Shown here in pieces: positions 4,862 to 35,345 of a DNA stretch of 64,000 bases. The notes below the pieces were generated by a model. That model saw nothing but the letters and a program-made list of their open reading frames with translations. It made no database searches and was not told the DNA's origin. Origin of the DNA: Corynebacterium sphenisci DSM 44792 (GTDB lineage: Bacteria > Actinomycetota > Actinomycetes > Mycobacteriales > Mycobacteriaceae). Every line of letters begins with the position of its first letter. Position 1 is the first letter of the stretch. Made by a program: the position numbers and the translations under genes. Location: positions 1,736,001 to 1,800,000 of the forward strand of contig NZ_CP009248.1 in the NCBI RefSeq assembly GCF_001941505.1, given 5' to 3'.

Positions 4862-6298
4862 GTGGCTTTCACCTCCCCCGAGGACGTGGTCAAGTTCATC
4901 GAGGACGAGGCCGTCGAGTTCGTCGACGTCCGCTTCACCGACGTCCCCGGCACCGAGCAGCACGTCACCATCCCCGCCTCGGCCTTCGACGTCGACGCCA
5001 TGGAGGACGGGCTCGCCTTCGACGGCTCGTCGATCCGGGGCTTCACCACCATCGACGAATCCGATATGACCCTGCTGCCGGATCTCGCCACGGCGCGGCT
5101 GGACCCCTTCCGCACCGCGAAAACCCTGAACATCCGCTTCTTCGTGCATGACCCCTTCACCCTGGAGCCGTTCAGCCGGGATCCGCGCAACGTCGCCCGC
5201 AAGGCCGAGGAGTACCTCGTGTCCACCGGGATCGCGGACACCTGCTTCTTCGGCGCGGAGGCGGAGTTCTACGTCTTCGACTCGGTGCGCTTCGCCACCG
5301 GCATCAACGGCGGCCACTACGAGGTGGATTCCGTGGAGGGCTGGTGGAACCGGGGCAAGGAGGCCAATCCGGACGGCTCGGCGAACCTGGGCTACAAGAC
5401 CCGGGTCAAGGGCGGCTACTTCCCCACCGCGCCCTACGACCACTACCAGGACCTGCGCGACGAGATGTGCAGGGAGCTCGCCGCGGCCGGCTTCGAGCTG
5501 GAGCGCGCCCACCACGAGGTGGGCACCGGCGGGCAGATGGAGATCAACTACAAGTTCAACTCCATGCTGCACGCCGCCGATGATCTGCAGTCCTTCAAGT
5601 ACATCGTGAAGAACGTCGCCTGGCGGGCGGGCAAGTCCGCCACCTTCATGCCCAAGCCCCTGGCCGGGGACAACGGCTCCGGGATGCACGCGCACATGTC
5701 GCTGTGGAAGGACGGCGAGCCGCTCTTCCACGACGAGTCGGGCTACGGGGGGCTCTCCGACATCGCCAGGTTCTACATCGGCGGCATCCTGGCGCATGCC
5801 GGGGCGGTGCTGGCCTTCACCAACCCGACGCTGAACTCCTACCACCGGCTGGTGAAGGGCTTCGAGGCGCCGATCAACCTGGTGTACTCGCAGCGCAACC
5901 GCTCCGCGGCGGTGCGCATCCCGATCACCGGCTCCAACCCCAAGGCGAAGCGGATCGAGTTCCGCGCCCCGGATCCCTCGGGCAACCCCTACCTGGGCTT
6001 CGCGGCGATGATGATGGCCGGCCTCGACGGCATCCGCAACCGGATCGAGCCGGACGCGCCGGTGGACAAGGATCTCTACGAGCTGCCCCCCGAGGAGGCC
6101 GCCAGCATCCCGCAGGCGCCGACCTCCCTGGAGGCCGCGCTGGCCGCCCTGGAGGCCGATCACGAGTTCCTGCTCGAGGGCGATGTGTTCACCGAGGACC
6201 TGATCGAGACCTACATCGCGTACAAGTACGACAACGAAATCGCCCCGGTGCGGCTGCGGCCCACCCCCCAGGAGTTCGAGCTCTACTACGACGTGTAG
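4862..6298 (+). CDS. glnA: Glutamine synthetase type I, copy 1 (syntenic glnA)
   Basis: ATP-dependent ligation of ammonium to glutamate. The 478 residues match the GSI-beta length. Visible motifs are the ammonium-site loop FDGSSIRGF (about 53-61), the catalytic loop [14 protein letters not shown] with Asn271, the flap GFEAP with Glu335, NRSAAVRIP, and the adenylylation loop [11 protein letters not shown] with Tyr406, the predicted target of GlnE (30824-33994). Position next to the RDD gene makes this the syntenic glnA. Oddly, the flap reads LVKGFEAP: Lys332 replaces a proline that copies 2 and 3 keep and that I recall as conserved in bacterial GSI. GTG 4862 follows AAGGAG by 8 bases. A 14-bp hairpin terminates it. 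Confidence 0.95.
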
Positions 6299-6330
6299 CG
6301 CCCGGCGGGCAGCGTCCCCGCCGCACCACC

Positions 6331-6362
6331 GGCCGCCCGGCCCCGCATGGGGCCGGGCGGCC
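6331..6362. terminator. 14-bp hairpin after glnA1
   Basis: GGCCGCCCGGCCCC, loop GCAT, GGGGCCGGGCGGCC: a perfect stem with no T-tract, lying 33 bases after the glnA1 stop. It separates glnA1 from the ThDP-enzyme gene. Confidence 0.75.
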
Positions 6363-6522
6363 GGCCGTGTCCCCGGGGGGGCGCCGCCCGGATGCCCGGG
6401 CGGGCGATCCCACCCCGGGGTTCCGGCGGATTCCCGGTTCCCCCACCATCGGACCACCCCCGCGTCCCCCCGTTTTTCCCTCGGCGATCCGCCACCCGCC
6501 CCATTCCGGGGGTGCGTGGATG

Positions 6523-6557
6523 TAGCATGGGTCACTTCCGGGGCGATACATTCCCCG
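6523..6557 (+). promoter_or_regulatory. Promoter and inverted repeat upstream of the ThDP enzyme
   Basis: In the 345-base gap after glnA1, besides the terminator, TAGCAT (6523-6528) is a plausible -10 box. Just downstream, around the expected transcription start, is CGGGG-N9-CCCCG (6539-6557) with an AT-rich centre. This could be an operator or a 5' hairpin. The remaining sequence to 6643 is GC-rich without other signals, except AAGGA (6634-6638) as the ribosome binding site. Confidence 0.4.
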
Positions 6558-6643
6558 ACCACCCCGCGCCGGCGGCCGGCCCGGCCGCCGGCGCCGCGCG
6601 GGCGCCCCCGGCGCACCGCGCCACGCACCACCGAAGGACCCCC

Positions 6644-8335
6644 ATGACCCTCGCCCAGCACCTCGCCGATCCCCTCGTGGAACCCGACCTGCACGAGCCC
6701 ACCGTCTCCCAGGTGGTGGCCGACGCGATCGCCGTCCACGCCGATCACGTCTTCGGCCTGGTCGGCAACGCCAACTCCCATATCGTCTCCTCGCTGACCC
6801 GCCGCGGCTTCCCCTACACCGCGGTGCGCCACGAGAGCGCCACGGTCGCCGCCGCGGACGCCTTCCACCGCGCCGGCGGCGGGATCGCGGTGGCCACCAC
6901 CACCTGCGGGGCCGGGTTCACCAACACGCTCACCGCCCTGGCCGAGGCCGCGAAGGCCCGGATCCCGCTGGTGCTGGTCACCGGCGCCGCCCCGACCGCG
7001 CCCCGCCCCTTCGACCTGGACCAGGCCGGGCTGGTGGACGCCCTGGGCGTGCCCCGGCGCACCGCGGCCCCCGGGCGCGCGGGCGCCGAGGCCGCCGCCG
7101 CCTTCGCCGAGGCGGCCGCCTCGCGCACCCCGGTGGTGCTCGAGGTGCCCTTCGACGCGCAGACCGCCCCCGCCGGGGCCGGCGCCGCTGCGGCGCCGGC
7201 CAACCCGGTGGCAGCCCCCGCCCCGGCCGCACCCGAGCCGGCGGTGGTGGCCGCCCTGGCCCGGCGCCTGGCCGGCGCGGCCCGGCCGCTCATCATCGCC
7301 GGGCGCGGGGTGGTCGACTCCGGCACCGCCGGGGCGGTCGCCGCCCTGGCCGAGCGGCTCGGCGCGCTGCACATGCACACCGCGATGGCCGCCAACGTCC
7401 TCGGCGGGCCCTGGTGCCTGGGTACCGCCGGCGGATTCGCGCACGCCTCCCGCCTGGGACTCACCCGGGCCGCCGACGTGGTGCTGAGCCTCGGCGCCTC
7501 GCACAACGCCTTCCAGGTCCGCGGCGGCCGGCTGCTGGACCCGGCGGCGCACGTCATCCAGGTCGTCGACGAAGCGCATCCGGCGGCCCGGCCGGTCGAC
7601 GAGCTGGTGCTCGCCGATCTGCGCGACCTGCTGCCGGCGCTGCTGGAGGCCCTGGCCGGGCTGCCCGGGCCCGCGGCGACCTGGCGCGAGGAGCTCGGCG
7701 CGCTCGGGCCGGCCGAGGACCGCGCGGCCACCCCGGAGCTGTTCGCGGAAACCGGCGCGGACGGCCGGATCGACCCGCGGGCGGCGCTGCGCCGGATCGA
7801 CGCGGCGCTGCCGGCGGAGCGCACCGTGGTCACCGACGGCGGGCACTTCCTGGGCTGGGTGCCCAAGCACCTCACCGCCACCGATCCGCATGGCCAGGTG
7901 CTGGTGGGCACCGCGGTGCAGTCCATCGGCCTGGGCTTCGGCTCCGCGGTGGGCGCCGCCGCGGCCCGCCCGGGGGCGGCGACGGTGCTGGTCACCGGCG
8001 ACGGCGGCGGGCTGATGGCGCTGGCCGACCTGGACTCCTTCCTGCGCACCGTGCGCCATGGCGCGGTGGTGGTGCTCAACGACGCCGCCTACGGCGCGGA
8101 GCTGCACCAGTACGCCGCCGAGGGCCTGCACACCGCCTCGATGCTGATCGAGGACGTGGACTTCGCCGCCCTGGGCCGCGCCCTCGGCGCCCGCGGGGTG
8201 ACCGTGGCCGATCCGGCGGACTGGCCGGCCGCGGAGGCCGCCCTCGCCGCACCGGAGGGGGTCACCGTGGTGGACGTGAAGATCTCCCGGGAGGTCGTCG
8301 CCGACTTCATCGCCGAGGTGCTCAAGCGCCAGTAG
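6644..8335 (+). CDS. ThDP-dependent enzyme, acetolactate synthase-like
   Basis: A 563-residue protein of the thiamine-diphosphate decarboxylase/acetolactate synthase superfamily. The Pyr domain (about residues 18-180) carries the activating Glu64 (AVRHESATVAAADAF). A central domain spans about 215-355, and the PP domain (about 385-550) holds the ThDP/Mg motif GDGGG at 452-456 ending in VVVLNDAAYG. The actual 2-oxoacid substrate cannot be told. Ala/Pro-rich linkers separate the domains. The ATG is chosen for AAGGA 5 bases upstream. No small ALS regulatory subunit lies nearby, so it is probably not the housekeeping IlvB. Its place between two glutamine synthetase genes suggests a shared pathway, which is inference. 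Confidence 0.85.
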   Translation: MTLAQHLADPLVEPDLHEPTVSQVVADAIAVHADHVFGLVGNANSHIVSSLTRRGFPYTAVRHESATVAAADAFHRAGGGIAVATTTCGAGFTNTLTALAEAAKARIPLVLVTGAAPTAPRPFDLDQAGLVDALGVPRRTAAPGRAGAEAAAAFAEAAASRTPVVLEVPFDAQTAPAGAGAAAAPANPVAAPAPAAPEPAVVAALARRLAGAARPLIIAGRGVVDSGTAGAVAALAERLGALHMHTAMAANVLGGPWCLGTAGGFAHASRLGLTRAADVVLSLGASHNAFQVRGGRLLDPAAHVIQVVDEAHPAARPVDELVLADLRDLLPALLEALAGLPGPAATWREELGALGPAEDRAATPELFAETGADGRIDPRAALRRIDAALPAERTVVTDGGHFLGWVPKHLTATDPHGQVLVGTAVQSIGLGFGSAVGAAAARPGAATVLVTGDGGGLMALADLDSFLRTVRHGAVVVLNDAAYGAELHQYAAEGLHTASMLIEDVDFAALGRALGARGVTVADPADWPAAEAALAAPEGVTVVDVKISREVVADFIAEVLKRQ

Positions 8336-8393
8336 CCGGCCCCGAGGGGCCCCGCGGCGGGCCCACGCGGCGGCCCCCCGGGGGCGTCGCGAT

Positions 8394-8473
8394 GGTTACC
8401 TGGCGGCAACACGGGGGAACGGGACGGGAAACACCGGGTACCTAACGTCGGCGACGTCCCCGGATCGGGTACC
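8394..8473 (+). promoter_or_regulatory. Candidate promoter of glutamine synthetase copy 2
   Basis: The 250-base gap after the ThDP gene contains TAACGT (8443-8448) as the best -10 box. It is flanked by two GGTACC palindromes (8437-8442 and 8468-8473, 31 bp apart, about three helical turns) and preceded by GGTTACC (8394-8400). The 12-mer CCTAACGTCGGC (8441-8452) recurs upstream of the gene at 54987. A small GGCCCC-GA-GGGGCC hairpin follows the ThDP stop codon. Confidence 0.4.
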
Positions 8474-8585
8474 CCCCGGACCGTGGACGCCACGGGCGCC
8501 GGCCGCAGGTTCGTGACCGGCAGGGGCGCCTGCGGCCGGCCCCTCCCGGGGCGGCCCGAAGCCAGCCAACCATCTAGGAGTCATC

Positions 8586-10022
8586 GTGGGCACCACCTCA
8601 CCCGAAACCATCGAGCAGCTCATCCGGGACGAGGGCGTCGAATTCGTCGACGTCCGCTTCACCGACGTCCCCGGCACCGAGCAGCACGTCACCATCCCCG
8701 CCTCGGCCTTCGACGCCGACGCGATGACCGAGGGGCTCGCCTTCGACGGCTCCTCGGTGCGCGGGTTCACCTCCATCGACGAGTCCGACATGGCCCTGCT
8801 GCCGGACCTGGACACCGCCCGGATCGACCCCTTCCGCACCGCGAAGACCCTGAACATCAAGTTCTTCGTGCACGATCCCTTCACCCTGGAGCCCTTCAGC
8901 CGGGATCCGCGCAACGTGGCCCGCAAGGCCGAGGAGTACCTGGTCTCCACCGGCATCGCGGACACCTGCTTCTTCGGCGCCGAGGCCGAGTTCTACCTCT
9001 TCGACAACGTCCGCTTCGCCACCGGCATGAACGAGGGCTTCTACCGGGTGGACTCCGTGGAGGGCTGGTGGAACCGCGGGGCCGAGGCCAACCCCGACGG
9101 GTCGGCCAACCTCGGCTACAAGACCCGGGTCAAGGGCGGCTACTTCCCCACCGCGCCCTACGACCACTACCAGGACCTGCGCGACGAGATGTGCCTGAAC
9201 CTGGCCGCCGCCGGGTTCGAGCTGGAGCGCGCCCACCACGAGGTCGGCACCGGCGGCCAGCAGGAGATCAACTACAAGTTCAACACCCTGCTGCACGCCG
9301 CCGACGACCTGCAGTCCTTCAAGTACATCGTGAAGAACGTCGCCTGGCGCGCCGGCAAGTCCGCCACCTTCATGCCCAAGCCCCTGGCCGGGGACAACGG
9401 CTCCGGGATGCACGCCCACCAGTCCCTGTGGGCCGGCGGTGAGCCGCTCTTCCACGATGAGGCCGGCTACGGCGGCCTGTCGGACATCGCCCGCTTCTAC
9501 ATCGGCGGCATCCTCGCGCACGCCGGGGCGGTGCTGGCCTTCACCAACCCGACCCTGAACTCCTACCACCGCCTGGTGCCCGGGTTCGAGGCCCCGATCA
9601 ACCTGGTGTACTCCCAGCGCAACCGCTCCGCGGCGGTGCGCATCCCGATCACCGGCTCCAACCCCAAGGCCAAGCGCCTGGAATTCCGGGCCCCGGACCC
9701 CTCGGCGAACCCGTACTTCGCCTTCGCGGCCATGATGATGGCCGGCCTCGACGGGATCCGCAACCGGATCGAGCCCGATGCCCCGGTGGACAAGGACCTC
9801 TACGAGCTGCCCCCGGAGGAGGCCGCGAACATCCCGCAGGCGCCGACCTCCCTGGAGGCCGCCCTCGCCGCCCTCGCGGAGGACAACGAGTTCCTGCAGG
9901 AGGGCGACGTGTTCACCCCGGATCTGCTGGAGACCTACCTGGCCTACAAGCACGACAACGAGATCGCCCCGGCCCGGCTGCGGCCCACCCCCCAGGAGTT
10001 CGAGCTCTACTACGACGTCTAG
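8586..10022 (+). CDS. Glutamine synthetase type I, copy 2
   Basis: 478 residues, aligned without gaps to copy 1. All recognisable substrate and nucleotide motifs are intact: [23 protein letters not shown] with Asn271, LVPGFEAP with the normal proline, NRSAAVRIP, and [11 protein letters not shown] with adenylylatable Tyr406. By sequence it looks fully functional and closest to the corynebacterial GlnA consensus. The start is GTG 8586, preceded by AGGAG at 8576-8580. A 73-bp tract (8643-8715) is identical to copy 1 (4919-4991), and a 101-bp tract (9518-9618) is identical to copy 3 (12598-12698), although the surroundings differ at silent sites. It has its own terminator. Confidence 0.93.
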
Positions 10023-10044
10023 CCCCGGACCCTCCTCCACCGTC

Positions 10045-10092
10045 ATCGCGCCGCACCGCGACCCGCCCCGGCGGGCCGCGGTGCGGCGCGAT
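10045..10092. terminator. 16-bp perfect hairpin after copy 2
   Basis: ATCGCGCCGCACCGCG (10045-10060) pairs perfectly with CGCGGTGCGGCGCGAT (10077-10092), 23 bases after the stop codon. There is no T-tract. Confidence 0.75.
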
Positions 10093-10196
10093 CACGTCCC
10101 GCCGGGCGCTCCCGGACCGCCCAGAGCAGCGGTGTTAGCCCGCAGGACCCGCCCCGCAGCCCATGGTGCAGGCGATGCACCCTCCCCCGCGGCCTG

Positions 10197-10231
10197 TAAT
10201 ATGTTTCTTCGGCGGGATTTTCAGTCCCGCC
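10197..10231 (+). promoter_or_regulatory. Promoter with inverted repeat upstream of the cyclodeaminase-like gene
   Basis: The 383-base gap 10023-10405 holds the terminator of copy 2 and then an AT-rich island unusual for this DNA: TAATAT (10197-10202), a near-consensus -10 box. Immediately downstream is GGCGGGA-N7-TCCCGCC (10211-10231), a perfect 7-bp inverted repeat over the expected start site. It could be an operator or an mRNA hairpin. The remaining leader to 10405, about 175 bases, shows nothing recognisable. Confidence 0.5.
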
Positions 10232-10405
10232 TATGAGACAAGCGAACACAGTGACGGTCCGCCCTCGCCCGCTCGGGGGTGGACGGGTACCTGGAACCCC
10301 CCGGAGGCCACCCCGGCGCCGCGGCCCGCCCCACCACCGGGCGCGGTCGCGCGGCGGAGGCAGTCCCCGTCGCGTGAACCCCGGAAAGGCTGGGCACACC
10401 ACCCC

Positions 10406-11563
10406 ATGACCGGTTTTCCAGATAACCCCCGCATCGACTTCCTCTACCTGGACGAGGAGGACATGCTCGCCGCCGGCGTCGACGACGCCGCGAAATGCGT
10501 CGAGTGCATGGAGGAGACGCTGATCCTGCTCGCCGAGGGCGACTTCCGGATGGCCGGCGCCTCGGCGAACTCCCATGGCGCGCAGATCAACTTCCCCGCC
10601 GACCCCGAGCATCCCAGGATGCCCGCGGACGGCCCGGACCGGCGCTTCATGGCCATGCCGGCCTACCTCGGCGGCCGCTTCGGCACCGCCGGGGTGAAGT
10701 GGTACGGCTCCAACGCGGAGAACCGCGAGCACGATCTGCCGCGCTCCATCCACGTCTTCGTGCTCAACGACGCCACCACCGGCGCGCCCCTGGCCATCAT
10801 GAGCGCCAACCTGCTCTCCGCCTACCGCACCGGCGCGGTGCCCGGCGTGGGCGTCAAGCACCTCGCCCTCGCCGAGGCCGAGACCGTGGGCATCATCGGC
10901 CCCGGCGTGATGAGCCGCACCATCCTCGGCTCGGCGCTGTCCCAGCGCCCCGGCATCCGCACCGTGAAGGTCAAGGGCCGCTCGCGCCGGTCCACGGAGA
11001 AGGCCGTGGCCTGGATCCGCGAGACCTACCCGCAGCTGACCGAGGTGCGCGTGGTGGACAGCGAGCGCGAGGCGATCGAGGGCTCCGACATCGTCATCGC
11101 CGGCACCTCCACCTCCCCGGACGGCCCGGAGGGCTTCCCGCATTTCCGGCGGGAGTGGATCAAGCCCGGCGCGCTGCTGCTGATGCCGGCCGCCGCCCGC
11201 CTCGACGACGACTTCGTCACCTCCGAGGAGGCCAACCTGGTGGTCGACTACCGCGGCCTGTACCAGGAGTGGTTCCACGAGAACGGCCCCGGCGTCACCT
11301 ACGAGCGGCTGCTGGGCATCCCCGGCAACCGCTGGTGGGATATGAAGGAGGAGGGCACCCTCCCCGAGGAGCGGATCGTCAACATCGGCGACATCGCCGC
11401 CGGCCGCGCCCCCGGGCGCGAGAACGACGAGCAGATCTTCTGCTACTCCATCGGCGGCATGCCGGTGGAGGACGTCGCCTGGGCCACCGACCTCTACCAT
11501 GCGGCGAAGGAGCGGGGCATCGGCACCACCCTGAACCTCTGGGAGACCCCGCGGCTGGCCTGA
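10406..11563 (+). CDS. Ornithine cyclodeaminase/mu-crystallin family enzyme
   Basis: 385 residues of the OCD/alanine dehydrogenase/SbnB superfamily: NAD(P)-dependent enzymes acting on amino acids or imines. Visible features are RRFMAMPAYLGG (79-90), the family lysine in GVKWYGSN (Lys98), the RTGA signature (141-144), and the Rossmann loop GIIGPGVMSR (162-171) followed by VKVKGRS. The substrate is unknown: ornithine cyclodeaminase, an SbnB-like dehydrogenase and an imine reductase are all possible. The ATG is at 10406, with GGAAAGG at 10383-10389 rather far upstream (16 bases). Copy 3 of glutamine synthetase follows after 102 bases, probably in the same unit, which points to an amino-acid ligation or modification pathway. 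Confidence 0.82.
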   Translation: MTGFPDNPRIDFLYLDEEDMLAAGVDDAAKCVECMEETLILLAEGDFRMAGASANSHGAQINFPADPEHPRMPADGPDRRFMAMPAYLGGRFGTAGVKWYGSNAENREHDLPRSIHVFVLNDATTGAPLAIMSANLLSAYRTGAVPGVGVKHLALAEAETVGIIGPGVMSRTILGSALSQRPGIRTVKVKGRSRRSTEKAVAWIRETYPQLTEVRVVDSEREAIEGSDIVIAGTSTSPDGPEGFPHFRREWIKPGALLLMPAAARLDDDFVTSEEANLVVDYRGLYQEWFHENGPGVTYERLLGIPGNRWWDMKEEGTLPEERIVNIGDIAAGRAPGRENDEQIFCYSIGGMPVEDVAWATDLYHAAKERGIGTTLNLWETPRLA

Positions 11564-11592
11564 GCGGCCGCCGCGACCCGCGCCCCCGGCGC

Positions 11593-11610
11593 CCGGGCGG
11601 CCCCGCCCGG
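11593..11610. other. Short stem-loop between cyclodeaminase-like gene and copy 3
   Basis: CCGGGCGG/CCGCCCGG with a 2-base centre lies in the 102-base gap. It is too short and tightly looped to be a sure terminator and may cause partial attenuation. Downstream, AGGGA at 11651-11655 serves GTG 11666. Confidence 0.35.
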
Positions 11611-11665
11611 ACCCGGACAACCGAATACCCAACCAAGCACCATCTGAATCAGGGATTGATTTACC

Positions 11666-13102
11666 GTGGCTTTCGAAAGCCCGTCTGACATCGTGTCGTT
11701 CATCAGGGACCGGGGGATCCGCTGGGTCGACGTCCGCTTCACCGATGTGCCGGGGGTGATGCAGCACCTGTCCATCCCCGCGCACCAGTTCGACGAGGAG
11801 GCCATGATCGACGGGCTCGCCTTCGACGGCTCCTCGATCAGCGGCTACACCTCGGTGGACAACTCCGACATGAACCTGGTGCCGGACATCTCCACCGCCT
11901 ACGTCGACCCCTTCCGGGAGTCGCCGACGCTGAACATGATGTTCTTCGTGCAGGACCCGCACACCACCGAGCCCTTCTCCCGGGACCCGCGCAACATCGC
12001 GCTGAAGGCGGAGAAGTACCTCGCGTCCACCGGGATCGCGGACACCTGCTTCCTCGGCTCCGAGGCGGAGTTCTACATCTTCGACAAGGTCCGCTACGAC
12101 ACCACCTCCAACCGCTCCTTCCACGAGGTCGACTCCGTGGAGGGCTGGTGGAACTCCGGGAAGGAGTACAACCCGGACGGCTCCCGCAACCTGGGGCACA
12201 AGGTGCGCACCAAGGGCGGCTACTTCCCGGTGGCCCCCTACGACCACCTGGAGCACCTGCGCGACGAGATCGGCGAGACCCTGGACTCCATCGGCTTCAC
12301 CGTGGAGCGCGCCCACCACGAGATGGGCTCCGGCGGCCAGCAGGAGGTCAACTACAAGTTCAACACCCTGCTGCACGCCGCCGATGACCTGCAGACCTTC
12401 AAGTACATCGTGAAGAACGTGGCCAAGCGCAACGGCCGCTCCGCGACCTTCATGCCCAAGCCCCTGGCCGGCGACGGCGGCTCCGGGATGCACGTGCACC
12501 AGTCGCTGTGGAAGGACGGCGAACCGCTCTTCCACGACGAGGGCGGCTACGGGGGCCTGTCGGACCTCGCCCGGTTCTACATCGGCGGGATCCTGGAGCA
12601 CGCCGGGGCGGTGCTGGCCTTCACCAACCCGACCCTGAACTCCTACCACCGCCTGGTGCCCGGGTTCGAGGCCCCGATCAACCTGGTGTACTCCCAGCAG
12701 AACCGCTCCGCGGCGATCCGGATCCCGCTGACCGGGCCGAACCCGAAGGCCAAGCGGATCGAGTTCCGCGCCCCGGACGCCTCCGGCAACCCCTACCTGG
12801 GCTTCACCGCGATGCTCATGGCCGGCCTGGACGGGATCCGCAACCGCATCGAGCCGCCCGCGCCGGTGGACAAGGACCTCTACGAACTGCCCCCCGAGGA
12901 GGCCAAGGGCATCCCCACGGTGCCCACCTCCCTGGAGGCGGCGCTGCACGCCCTGGAGGACGACCACGAGTTCCTGGTCGCCGGGGACGTGTTCACCGAG
13001 GACCTCATCGAGGCCCATATCCGGCACAAGTTCGACGAGGAGATCGTGCCCGCCCGGCTGCGCCCGACCACCCAGGAGTTCGAGCTCTACTACGACTGCT
13101 GA
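11666..13102 (+). CDS. Glutamine synthetase type I, copy 3 (divergent)
   Basis: 478 residues, collinear with copies 1 and 2 but the most divergent. Adenylylation Tyr406 ([11 protein letters not shown]) and flap LVPGFEAP are intact. Two positions near the glutamate site are changed. Asn271 of the catalytic loop is Gly ([14 protein letters not shown]); by alignment this is Asn264 of Salmonella GS. Arg345 is Gln (YSQQNRSA), Arg337 in Salmonella numbering. The ammonium loop reads FDGSSISGY. Synthesis of glutamine is therefore less certain; a gamma-glutamyl ligase for another amine or acid is possible. It probably shares a transcript with the cyclodeaminase-like gene. The start is GTG with AGGGA upstream. 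A 101-bp tract is identical to copy 2. Confidence 0.9.
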
Positions 13103-13127
13103 CCGCCGCGCGCGCCCCGCGCGGCCC

Positions 13128-13166
13128 ACGGCCCCGGCCCCCGCATCCCGCGGGGGCCGGGGCCGT
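13128..13166. terminator. 17-bp bidirectional hairpin
   Basis: ACGGCCCCGGCCCCCGC (13128-13144), loop ATCCC, and the perfect complement at 13150-13166. It lies between the convergent copy 3 and niaP genes. Confidence 0.8.
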
Positions 13167-13187
13167 CCGCCCTCACGCGGGCGGGGC

Positions 13188-14507
13188 TCAGGCCTCCAGG
13201 GCGGCGCCGGTGCGCTCGGGCAGGGTGAACGCCGCCGCGGCGGCGAGCACGAAGGCCGCGGCGAAGACCCCGAAGACCAGGCCCTGGCCCCCGGGCAGCA
13301 GCAGCGGCACCACCAGCGGCGCGGCGATCGAGGCCAGCCGCCCGAAGGCCGCGGCCGACCCGGTGCCGGAGCCGCGGGTGGCGGTGGGGTAGAGCTCCGG
13401 GCCGATCGCGTACAGCGCGCCCCAGGCGCCCAGGTTGAAGAAGGACAGCGCGCAGCCGGCGGCGATGACCTGCCACACGTCCCCGGAGAAGCCGAAGGCG
13501 GCGGCGGCCACCGCGGAGCCGGCGAGGAAGGCCGCCAGGGTCACCCGGCGCCCCCAGCGCTCGATGAGCCAGGCGGCCAGGGCGTAGCCGGGCAGCTGGG
13601 CCAGGGTGATGACCAGGGTGTAGCCGAAGGAGCGGACCAGGTCGAAACCGCGGTCCACGAGCAGGCTGGGCAGCCAGATGAAGGCCCCGTAGTAGGAGAA
13701 GTTGATGCAGAACCACACCGCCCACAGCGCCGCGGTGCGCGCCCGCAGCCGGGCCGACCAGATCGACTCGCCCTCGCCGCGGGCCCCCTCCGGCGCCGCC
13801 GGCGGCGCGGCCCGGTCGGCGGCGGGCCGCGCGGTGCGGCCCGCGGCGGCCTCGAACTCGGCGACGATCGCCTCGGCCTCGTCGGCCCGGCCCCGGGTCT
13901 CCAGGAAGCGCACCGACTCCGGCAGCCGCGCCCGCACGTAGATGGCGTAGGCCGCCGGCACCACCCCCAGGGCCAGCGCCCAGCGCCAGCCGTCCGCCCC
14001 GGCGGGGATGATGAGGTAGCCGATGAGCGCGGCGAGCAGCCAGCCCAGCGCCCAGAAGGCCTCCAGGATGACCAGCACCCGGCCCCGGATCCGCTTCGGC
14101 GCGAACTCGGCGACCAGGGTGGAGGCCACCGGCAGCTCCGCGCCCAGGCCCAGGCCCACCACGAAGCGCAGCGCCATCAGCGCGCCCACCCCGGCGGCCA
14201 GGGCGGAGGCGCCGGTGGCGATGCCGTAGACCAGCAGGGTCAGCGCGAACACCTGGCGGCGCCCGATCCGGTCGGCGAGCAGCCCGCCGAGGGCGGCGCC
14301 CAGGGCCATCCCGATGAAGCCCACCGAGCCCAGCCAGGACAGCTGTGTGGTGGAGAGGTTCCACTGCACCGCCAGCGCCGCCATCACGAAGGAGATGAGC
14401 CCCACGTCCATCGCGTCCAGGGCCCAGCCGACCCCCGATCCGAGCAGCAGCCGGCGGTGTTTTCCGGTGAAGGGCAGGCCGTCGAGGCGTTCCGTGCGGG
14501 TCAGCAT
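13188..14507 (-). CDS. niaP: NiaP-type major facilitator transporter
   Basis: A 439-residue, 12-helix MFS carrier that strongly resembles the niacin transporter NiaP and the aromatic-acid:H+ symporters. NiaP-like stretches include GWALDAMDVGLISF, GMALGAALGGLLADRIGRR, GAELPVASTLVAEFAP, RGRVLVILEAFWALGW, WFCINFSYYGAFIWLPS, LAQLPGYALAAWLIERWGRR and LSFFNLGAWGALYA. A long Ala/Arg-rich loop separates the two halves. Nicotinate is the likeliest substrate; another small carboxylic acid linked to the neighbouring cluster is possible. The start ATG 14507 (MLTRTERL) lies 6 bases after TACCTT, suggesting leaderless translation; the 19 extra residues of the longer ORF are not MFS-like. Confidence 0.82.
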   Translation of the reverse strand: MLTRTERLDGLPFTGKHRRLLLGSGVGWALDAMDVGLISFVMAALAVQWNLSTTQLSWLGSVGFIGMALGAALGGLLADRIGRRQVFALTLLVYGIATGASALAAGVGALMALRFVVGLGLGAELPVASTLVAEFAPKRIRGRVLVILEAFWALGWLLAALIGYLIIPAGADGWRWALALGVVPAAYAIYVRARLPESVRFLETRGRADEAEAIVAEFEAAAGRTARPAADRAAPPAAPEGARGEGESIWSARLRARTAALWAVWFCINFSYYGAFIWLPSLLVDRGFDLVRSFGYTLVITLAQLPGYALAAWLIERWGRRVTLAAFLAGSAVAAAAFGFSGDVWQVIAAGCALSFFNLGAWGALYAIGPELYPTATRGSGTGSAAAFGRLASIAAPLVVPLLLPGGQGLVFGVFAAAFVLAAAAAFTLPERTGAALEA

Positions 14508-34004: not shown

Positions 34005-35345
34005 TCAGTAGTCCAGGTTCGCGCGCAGCTCCCAGGGGGTGACCTGGGACTGGTACTCGCGGCATTCCCGCCACTTGTTGCGCAGGAAGAACTCGTAGAC
34101 GTGATCGCCGAGGGTGTCCGCCACCAGCTCGGAGCGCTCCATCTCGCGCAGCGCCTCCTCCAGGGAGGTCGGCAGATCCCGGTAGCCCAGCGCCCGGCGC
34201 TCCCGCAGGGTCATCTCCGAGATGTTGTCCTCCGCCTGCGGGGGCAGCTCGTAGCCCTCGGTGATCCCGCGCAGGCCCGCGGCGAGCACCACCGAGAAGG
34301 CCAGGTAGGGGTTGCACGCCGAGTCGATGGAGCGGATCTCCACCCGCCGGGAGGAGGCCTTGCCCGGGGAGTACATCGGCACCCGCACCATCGCCGAGCG
34401 GTTCGCCATCCCCCAGGTCGCCGCGGTCGGCGCCTCCGCGCCGAAGACGGTGCGCTTGTAGGAGTTCACCCACTGGTTGGTCACCGCCGAGATCTCGTTG
34501 GCGTGGGTGAGCACCCCGGCGATGAACCCGCGCGCGGTGCGGGAGAGCTGGAACTCGTCATCGGGGTCGTTGAAGGCGTTCTCGTCGCCCTCGAACAGGG
34601 ACATGTGCGTGTGCATCGCCGAGCCGGGCTGGTCGGCGAAGGGCTTCGGCATGAACGTCGCGCGCACCCCGTTGTCCATCGCCACCCGCTTCACCAGGTA
34701 GCGGAAGGTCATGATGTTGTCCGCCATGGCCAGCGCATCGGCGTAGCGCAGGTCGATCTCCTGCTGACCCGGGGCGCCCTCGTGGTGGGAGTACTCCACC
34801 TGGATGCCCATCGCCTCCAGGGCGGTGATCGCGTCGCGCCGGAAATGCGGGGCCTTCTCGTGCACCGCCTGGTCGAAATAGCCGCCGCCGTCGGCCGGCA
34901 CCGGCGGCCGGCCCCCCGTGTCCAGGCTCTCCACCAGGAAGAACTCGATCTCCGGGTGCACCAGGGGGCTCAGCCCCTGCTCCGCGGCGGCCCGGATCTG
35001 GCCGCGCAGCACATGGCGCGGATCCGCCCAGCTGGGCTGGCCGTCGGGCATCACGATATCGCAGAACATCCGGGCCGAATGGGGCTGCTCGTCATCCTGG
35101 CGCCAGGGCAGCACCTGGAAGGTGGAGGGATCCGGCTTGGCGATGGTGTCGGCCTCGGAGACCCGGGAGAAGCCCTCGATGGCGGAGCCGTCGAAGCCGA
35201 TGCCCTCCTCGAAGGCGCCCTCCAGCTCCGCGGGGGACACCGCCACGGACTTCAGGTAGCCCTGGATGTCGGTGAACCAGAGCCGGATGAACTTGATCTC
35301 GCGTTCCTCGACGGTGCGCAGCACGAATTCCTGTTGGCGGTCCAT
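34005..35345 (-). CDS. glnA2: Glutamine synthetase, GSI-alpha type
   Basis: 446 residues, the length of corynebacterial and mycobacterial GlnA2. It has FDGSAIEGF, the catalytic loop PGSAMHTHMSLFEG, GAEAPTAATWG and NRSAMVRVP. The adenylylation loop DLYELPPEE is absent (here GYELPPQAEDNIS), so it should not be a GlnE target despite sharing its operon. C. glutamicum GlnA2 contributes little to ammonium assimilation; the role here is inferred to be similar. ATG 35345 lies 7 bases after TATCGT (+ strand 35353-35358), which suggests leaderless translation. Confidence 0.93.
   Translation of the reverse strand: MDRQQEFVLRTVEEREIKFIRLWFTDIQGYLKSVAVSPAELEGAFEEGIGFDGSAIEGFSRVSEADTIAKPDPSTFQVLPWRQDDEQPHSARMFCDIVMPDGQPSWADPRHVLRGQIRAAAEQGLSPLVHPEIEFFLVESLDTGGRPPVPADGGGYFDQAVHEKAPHFRRDAITALEAMGIQVEYSHHEGAPGQQEIDLRYADALAMADNIMTFRYLVKRVAMDNGVRATFMPKPFADQPGSAMHTHMSLFEGDENAFNDPDDEFQLSRTARGFIAGVLTHANEISAVTNQWVNSYKRTVFGAEAPTAATWGMANRSAMVRVPMYSPGKASSRRVEIRSIDSACNPYLAFSVVLAAGLRGITEGYELPPQAEDNISEMTLRERRALGYRDLPTSLEEALREMERSELVADTLGDHVYEFFLRNKWRECREYQSQVTPWELRANLDY

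Follow-up and report, generated by a model that had tools for sequence, protein, structure and literature searches.

We analysed a 64,000-nucleotide stretch of DNA (the window; G000:C1:1736001-1800000) within a 2.59-Mb Corynebacterium genome. We found that a gene of the ornithine cyclodeaminase/mu-crystallin (OCD) family and the glutamine synthetase (GS) gene behind it, GS3, form a conserved two-gene unit, and that the synthetases linked to OCD replace Asn264, an active-site residue. Judging from these residues, the substrate specificity of GS3 is likely altered. With moderate confidence we read the pair as a ligase and a ketimine-reductase-like dehydrogenase which act on an N-alkyl amino acid or on an amine released from it. 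The unit and its flanks in the window are as follows.

10245-10405, plus strand: GC-rich leader of the OCD gene, conserved with Corynebacterium sp. TAE3-ERU12
10406-11563, plus strand: OCD/mu-crystallin-family gene (PRK06199/NF004848), 385 amino acids, first gene of the two-gene unit
11666-13102, plus strand: GS3, an OCD-linked GSI paralogue with Gly for Asn264, second gene of the two-gene unit
13123-13171, no strand: GC-rich hairpin 3' of GS3 with 22-nt arms, 91% complementary, the likely end of the unit

The initial annotation had noted a cyclodeaminase-like gene here, and the protein scored 608 bits against NF004848 (PRK06199, named "tyramine oxidase subunit B"), over the cut-off of 362. 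Matches over the family cut-off occurred in 72 of 242 Corynebacterium genomes. We analysed 97 OCD places, each covering more than 0.7 of the query. The same-strand neighbour was a GS gene at 53 places, Amt plus DAO at 19, DAO at 14, Amt at 4 and none of these at 7. The 53 OCD-GS places belong to 53 different genomes. GS lies downstream within 1.7 kb at 51 of them and upstream within 200 bp at the other two (L066 and L068). Where GS follows OCD the gap is 300 bp or less in 49 of 52 cases, with a median of 78.5 bp (the split GS of L092 is counted twice); in the window it is 102 bp and a hairpin search found none in it. The gene that precedes the unit differs among the 21 loci listed. Genomes with OCD also carried at least three GS genes far more often (55 of 72) than the others did (19 of 170; Fisher p 3e-23, a value that ignores shared ancestry). 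When an OCD tree was built from 94 rows, three sequences with stops having been excluded, a single clade of 55 rows with a Shimodaira-Hasegawa-like approximate likelihood ratio (SH-aLRT) support of 100 contained each of the tree's 51 GS-linked rows. These data support well the conclusion that OCD-GS3 is a conserved two-gene unit. Our literature search found no paper on an OCD-glnA pairing in Corynebacterium; its looser queries were judged by titles and the beginnings of abstracts among the matches listed.

The two loci in which the order is reversed to GS then OCD, L066 (G237) and L068 (G056), have Ala in the place of Asn264. In both, a gene of one cluster, with a beta-eliminating-lyase domain in L066, adjoins OCD on the opposite strand.

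We then compared active-site residues. The column in question is chain position 271 in an alignment to Mycobacterium tuberculosis GlnA1, which we take to be Asn264 of the Asn-loop in Salmonella numbering. GS3 carries Gly at this position (GDGGSGMH) and leaves the remaining 21 of the 22 active-site and regulatory positions that we checked unchanged. Among full-length OCD-linked synthetases, with those of L092 and L234 left out as split or cut, the column holds Gly in 49 of 51 and Ala in 2. By comparison, glnA-type synthetases without an OCD link have Asn in 34 of 35. The sole non-Asn protein among these, L252_6747 of genome G196, has Gly, falls in the GS3 clade and has no OCD beside it; at this locus (G196:C13:60001-76000) the GS3-type synthetase stands near a glnA-type GS. 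Corynebacterium GlnA2 has Pro at the same column (3 of 3). In a set of the best 120 database matches of GS3 together with GS1 (121 proteins, 48 of which were unmatched by the pattern and scored by eye) Gly was found in 15 and Asn in 106. Other residues have changed in some linked groups: Arg59 is replaced in 16 rows of the GS3 clade (Ser in 12, Ala in 4), and another group of 20 rows has changed Lys176 in all 20 and Lys352 in 13.

The excerpted text of PMC8998196 describes Asn264 as an active-site residue at the ammonium site, and that of PMC10799026 counts the Asn-loop among the key catalytic elements and lists a glycine in or next to the loop for glutamate binding. The uniform replacement of Asn264, together with the conserved OCD linkage, makes a GS paralogue with an altered substrate a fair inference. 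The initial annotation had proposed that one of the GS copies handles an unusual substrate, and GS3 fits this, being OCD-linked with Asn264 replaced; for GS1 and GS2, with all 22 positions intact, the idea is not supported.

To which substrates the OCD-like enzyme might turn is indicated by its relatives. It scored 55.9 bits against the ornithine cyclodeaminase model PRK07589 (cut-off 350) and 155.9 bits against the SbnB family TIGR03944 (cut-off 326.9), and a literature search on the name "tyramine oxidase subunit B" found no paper. The closest solved proteins to the OCD family profile were 4m54 (194 bits), a pyrroline-2-carboxylate reductase (132) and an archaeal alanine dehydrogenase (119). 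All 48 aligned family members share Lys98, Arg113, Arg141 and Asp356, and in the printed alignments Arg113 is common to OCD and 4m54 and is absent from the alanine dehydrogenase and the pyrroline-2-carboxylate reductase. Genes neighbouring OCD-family members include those for N-methyltryptophan/sarcosine-oxidase-like DAO proteins, RidA-type proteins, amino acid permeases, Amt and PII. In Arthrobacter sp. B0490 (L154:2216-11140) OCD stands beside a GS-like gene of TIGR03105 (574 bits, cut-off 470), and further genes there are three with GATase, GXGXG and glutamate-synthase domains, a HutD gene, a DAO gene and an amidohydrolase gene. We take the three domain-bearing genes to be N-methylglutamate synthase and the set to be the N-methylglutamate pathway. 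Together, the OCD relatives, the neighbouring genes and the Arthrobacter cluster suggest secondary amines of the N-alkyl amino acid type as the putative substrate class of OCD.

As a working hypothesis for the substrate class and the directions of the reactions, OCD would most likely be an NAD(P)-dependent dehydrogenase of the ketimine-reductase or opine type, forming or cleaving a secondary amine, and GS3 would handle the amine, or amino acid, thereby released or consumed. GS3 would be a glutamate-type gamma-ligase in which the Asn264 to Gly change most likely shifts the substrate away from plain L-glutamate plus ammonia, toward an amine other than ammonia or a glutamate analogue with an N-substituent. 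A more specific version is a so far undescribed two-enzyme pathway in Corynebacterium for opine-type or N-methyl amino acids. Here an SbnB-like dehydrogenase would interconvert an N-substituted glutamate with an amine plus a 2-oxo acid, and the Asn264-less GS would either make the gamma-glutamyl amide of the amine or amidate the N-substituted glutamate. We regard this version as doubtful.

Several observations weigh against pairing OCD with a synthetase of changed specificity. By NCBIfam GS3 is an ordinary GlnA, and it scores far under the cut-offs both of the gamma-glutamylputrescine synthetase family NF045547 (223.9 bits, cut-off 650) and of TIGR03105, the type III GS/methylamide ligase family (245.3 bits, cut-off 469.6). 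The ammonium-site residues Asp50, Ser53, Tyr179 and Glu327 are intact in GS3, and the use of ammonia is still possible. Asn264 is also not a strict marker of the substrate, because Streptomyces coelicolor GlnA3 uses polyamines although it retains this residue, as described in the excerpted text of PMC8998196. Among 56 further OCD loci, mostly from other genera, our scan found no GlnA-type partner; the Arthrobacter locus is the only case of a GS near OCD, and its GS is of another subfamily. Four of the 55 rows of the GS-linked OCD clade have no adjacent GS: L094, L120 and L230, which lie in Amt settings and whose genomes also carry an OCD-GS unit, and L106, which stands alone. The co-occurrence of the OCD-GS unit with a thiamine diphosphate (ThDP)-dependent enzyme, described below, speaks for a wider pathway and is left unexplained by our reading. 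Finally, the OCD gene of G195 (L074) and that of G005 (L077) have an in-frame TAG, next to an intact GS. In the wider taxonomic family, OCD matches at E 1e-120 came from 6 of 151 genomes, including two of other genera, and the three OCDs there adjoin DAO genes.

It is possible, if somewhat unlikely, that the two genes instead recycle nitrogen, with OCD freeing ammonia from an amino acid and GS3, as a kinetically tuned glutamine synthetase, fixing this ammonia at once. The intact ammonium-site residues of GS3 besides Asn264 are consistent with this, and so is the presence of other OCDs of the family in operons with Amt, an ammonium permease. Using the consensus CTATN6ATAG as the AmtR-type box and mononucleotide shuffles as controls, we found an exact box in 13 of the 19 Amt-DAO upstream regions (0.1 expected) and in 4 of 14 DAO regions. 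The OCDs of the window and of genome G065, which we take to be C. glutamicum, share 61% identity. The ocd operon of C. glutamicum belongs to the AmtR regulon, according to the excerpted text of PMC1578569. However, the nitrogen-recycling explanation gives no reason why Asn264 is replaced in every one of the 51 linked synthetases, and no exact AmtR-type box was found in 50 OCD-GS upstream regions, that of the window included (boxes with one mismatch numbered 2, against 3.6 expected). AmtR control of the OCD-GS units was thus rejected. Moreover, when the Ocd of the C. glutamicum amt-ocd-sox operon was overproduced, the crude extract had no ornithine cyclodeaminase activity, and the protein lacks two active-site residues, as described in the excerpted text of PMC3702523.

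The OCD leader is 84% identical to that of TAE3-ERU12 over 149 bp, with one run of 35 identical bases. Some match to it (E 0.001) was found in 19 of the 242 genomes, and strong matches only in the window genome and TAE3-ERU12. No Rfam family matched the leader, so a known riboswitch was rejected there; the window stretch gave only two sub-cut-off XIST matches inside GS genes, and among 13 other loci the sole match over the gathering threshold was a tRNA in L111. The folding energy of the leader is no better than that of shuffled sequences (z-score -0.14). The leader is a possible regulatory RNA.

A functional link between OCD and GS3 could also be absent, GS3 being merely a diverged glnA copy that came to lie behind OCD by chance, through gene dosage and drift. 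We consider this improbable. It is true that GS1 and GS2 demonstrate local glnA duplication, that the OCD of L106 has no adjacent GS and that the GS3-type synthetase of L252 has no adjacent OCD. The linkage nevertheless recurs at 53 places in varied surroundings, the substitution is uniform while GS3 keeps the other checked residues, and the association of OCD with additional GS genes extends across genomes, although the species in that count are not independent.

Full-length GS trees placed the OCD-linked synthetases in three or more groups. With the N-terminal part, 0 of 200 bootstrap trees united them; the full-length count, also 0 of 200, treats L252 as unlinked and hence could not have differed. 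The one-clade tests did not reject a single origin (p 0.31 and 0.38, and 0.19 for two of the groups; with the N-terminal part 0.25 and 0.069, the latter being the lowest value, for all groups), and in the C-terminal tree one branch (93/89) parts glnA from all OCD-linked synthetases. We therefore do not claim convergence: the trees split the linked synthetases into groups, yet the tests allow a single origin, and repeated independent recruitment of GS to OCD was rejected as a conclusion. The trees may be blurred by gene conversion with the local glnA; an analysis of such conversion in nucleotide windows was possibly confounded by base composition and was not used. The simplest account of these trees would be one old GS paralogue, co-inherited with OCD and partly blurred.

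The remaining genes at the locus lie outside the two-gene unit. The gene order is RDD(-), GS1(+), ThDP(+), GS2(+), OCD(+), GS3(+) and a major facilitator superfamily (MFS) gene (-).

4862-6298, plus strand: GS1, an ordinary glnA that adjoins the RDD gene and keeps Asn264; outside the two-gene unit
6644-8335, plus strand: ThDP-dependent enzyme with three TPP domains; outside the two-gene unit
8586-10022, plus strand: GS2, a tandem glnA copy; outside the two-gene unit
13188-14507, minus strand: MFS carrier, convergent with GS3; outside the two-gene unit

GS1, GS2 and GS3 are each 478 residues long and scored 645, 644 and 625 bits against TIGR00653 (cut-off 429). All three carry the adenylylation residue Tyr397 and GS3 aligns over its full length to M. 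tuberculosis GlnA1, which bears out the initial annotation of three GSI-beta genes. A fourth synthetase of the genome, GlnA2, lies at 34005-35345 on the minus strand. Two GS genes were found in 165 of the 242 genomes, at least three in 74 and one in 3, in agreement with the earlier statement that one glnA and one glnA2 are the usual set. The proposed division of the locus into four units also agrees with the hairpins, which lie 3' of GS1 (6302-6391), GS2 (10041-10096) and GS3, with more 5' of the ThDP gene and GS2 and none between OCD and GS3. The promoters that were said to help divide it did not appear: simple consensus scans gave no sigma-70 promoter-like sites and no T-tailed terminators. 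Elsewhere in the window genome, G000:C1:2307896-2308843 gives a further strong match to a glutamate-synthase domain (295 bits), in addition to the long match at 72479.

GS1 and GS2 are 90% identical. They have the residue set of a functional type I GlnA, including Asn264, which GS3 does not. The adjacency of GS1 and RDD mirrors that of glnA in relatives where both genes were seen. From their sequences, GS1 and GS2 would be ordinary glutamine synthetases, and GS2 looks like an extra copy. In a tree of 270 N-terminal columns GS1 pairs with the first TAE3-ERU12 copy (100/93) and GS2 with the second (100/91), so the duplication predates the split from TAE3-ERU12; the full-length tree left the timing unresolved.

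The ThDP enzyme recognized in the initial annotation is present, with its three TPP domains. Against acetolactate synthase and other named ThDP families its best score was 152 bits with a cut-off of 600, among the 25 of 51 families listed, and its best database match was 93% identical, from Corynebacterium sphenisci. The carrier had been labelled NiaP-type, a name that its scores do not bear out: no curated family was reached among the 25 of 44 NCBIfam matches listed, the best being TIGR00895 (aromatic acid/H+ symport) with 260 bits against 418. In the nearest relative, TAE3-ERU12, its place is taken by another MFS gene (also PF07690) that does not cluster with the window carrier.

We weighed the single pathway that the initial annotation had drawn through all of these genes, in which the ThDP enzyme, OCD, GS and carrier jointly process one compound. 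The order GS1-ThDP-GS2-OCD-GS3 is kept in one other genome, TAE3-ERU12 (L067/L125). Co-occurrence across genomes, which had been suggested as a check, was seen in part. At E 1e-60, 45 genomes have a ThDP relative and the OCD-GS unit is present in 21 of them against 32 of 197 others (p 3e-5); at E 1e-130 or better, a threshold of our choice, 18 genomes including that of the window have one, and the unit is present in 8 against 45 of 224 others (p 0.03; both values ignore ancestry). ThDP and OCD are also no more than 20 kb apart in all 8 strict genomes that have both, although the closeness of glnA and thrC may account for this. The ThDP gene, however, often occurs apart from the unit: at E 1e-60 a ThDP relative is missing from 32 of the 53 OCD-GS genomes, and of the 18 strict genomes 8 have an OCD over cut-off and 10 have none (G168 and G169, among these ten, are fragmented assemblies). 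Among the loci read, ThDP adjoins the OCD-GS neighbourhood only in the window and TAE3-ERU12. Of 14 other ThDP loci, 10 have thrC on the same strand no more than 1 kb away, and the four without it include a contig of 4.6 kb. As a finding that would tell against its pathway, the initial annotation had named ThDP and OCD genes without GS; all 45 ThDP genomes have glnA, as do all genomes, and an adjacent GS is missing only for the four rows of the OCD clade given above. With GS2 and hairpins standing between ThDP and OCD-GS3, and a carrier that is not conserved, a single pathway through all four is very improbable, and the ThDP enzyme and carrier are probably bystanders.

By score, GS3-like proteins are plain glutamine synthetases, yet their uniform active-site change and constant partner gene set them apart as a group of their own, present in 53 of 242 Corynebacterium genomes. 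If the pairing of OCD with a synthetase of altered specificity is true, it would give a testable function to the "ornithine cyclodeaminase" group PRK06199; the C. glutamicum member of this group is left unresolved in the excerpted text of PMC3702523. It would also show how a central nitrogen enzyme may be redirected to another substrate.

The OCD-GS unit can be set beside several known systems. The N-methylglutamate pathway has a gene set similar to that beside the OCD-family member in Arthrobacter sp. B0490; this is a single case, and none was noticed beside the Corynebacterium OCD-GS units read, in which no systematic search was made. SbnB of the staphyloferrin B pathway, which we take 4M54 to be, is the nearest solved relative of the OCD family and shares Lys98 and Arg113 with it, whereas the window OCD scores under the SbnB family cut-off. 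SbnB acts on the N-substituted glutamate ACEGA. This compound is described in the excerpted text of PMC12414870. The C. glutamicum amt-ocd-soxA operon encodes a member of the same OCD family as the window (excerpts of PMC1578569 and PMC3702523), but there OCD has no GS partner, and the operon belongs to the AmtR regulon, whereas the 50 OCD-GS upstream regions had no exact AmtR-type box.

M. tuberculosis GlnA1 (4XYC, 2BVC) resembles GS3 closely (the two align over residues 3-477 of each at 712 bits, and 21 of 22 positions agree, the adenylylation Tyr among them); GS3 differs from it in having Gly for Asn264, and the GS3 clade in the 16 rows with a changed Arg59. In replacing Asn264, GS3 is like some relatives with other amine substrates, the GS-like gamma-glutamylamine ligases: by our alignments, read by eye, the place is Pro in the glutamate-methylamine ligase 9QUR and Thr in the type III GS 7CQL. 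The gamma-glutamylpolyamine synthetase GlnA2 of S. coelicolor likewise has Pro there and retains Glu327 (excerpt of PMC8998196). These enzymes belong to other subfamilies. GlnA2 of S. coelicolor also changes Ser53 and Tyr179 (same excerpt), both of which are kept in GS3, and 9QUR and 7CQL, again by eye, are without Glu327, which GS3 keeps.

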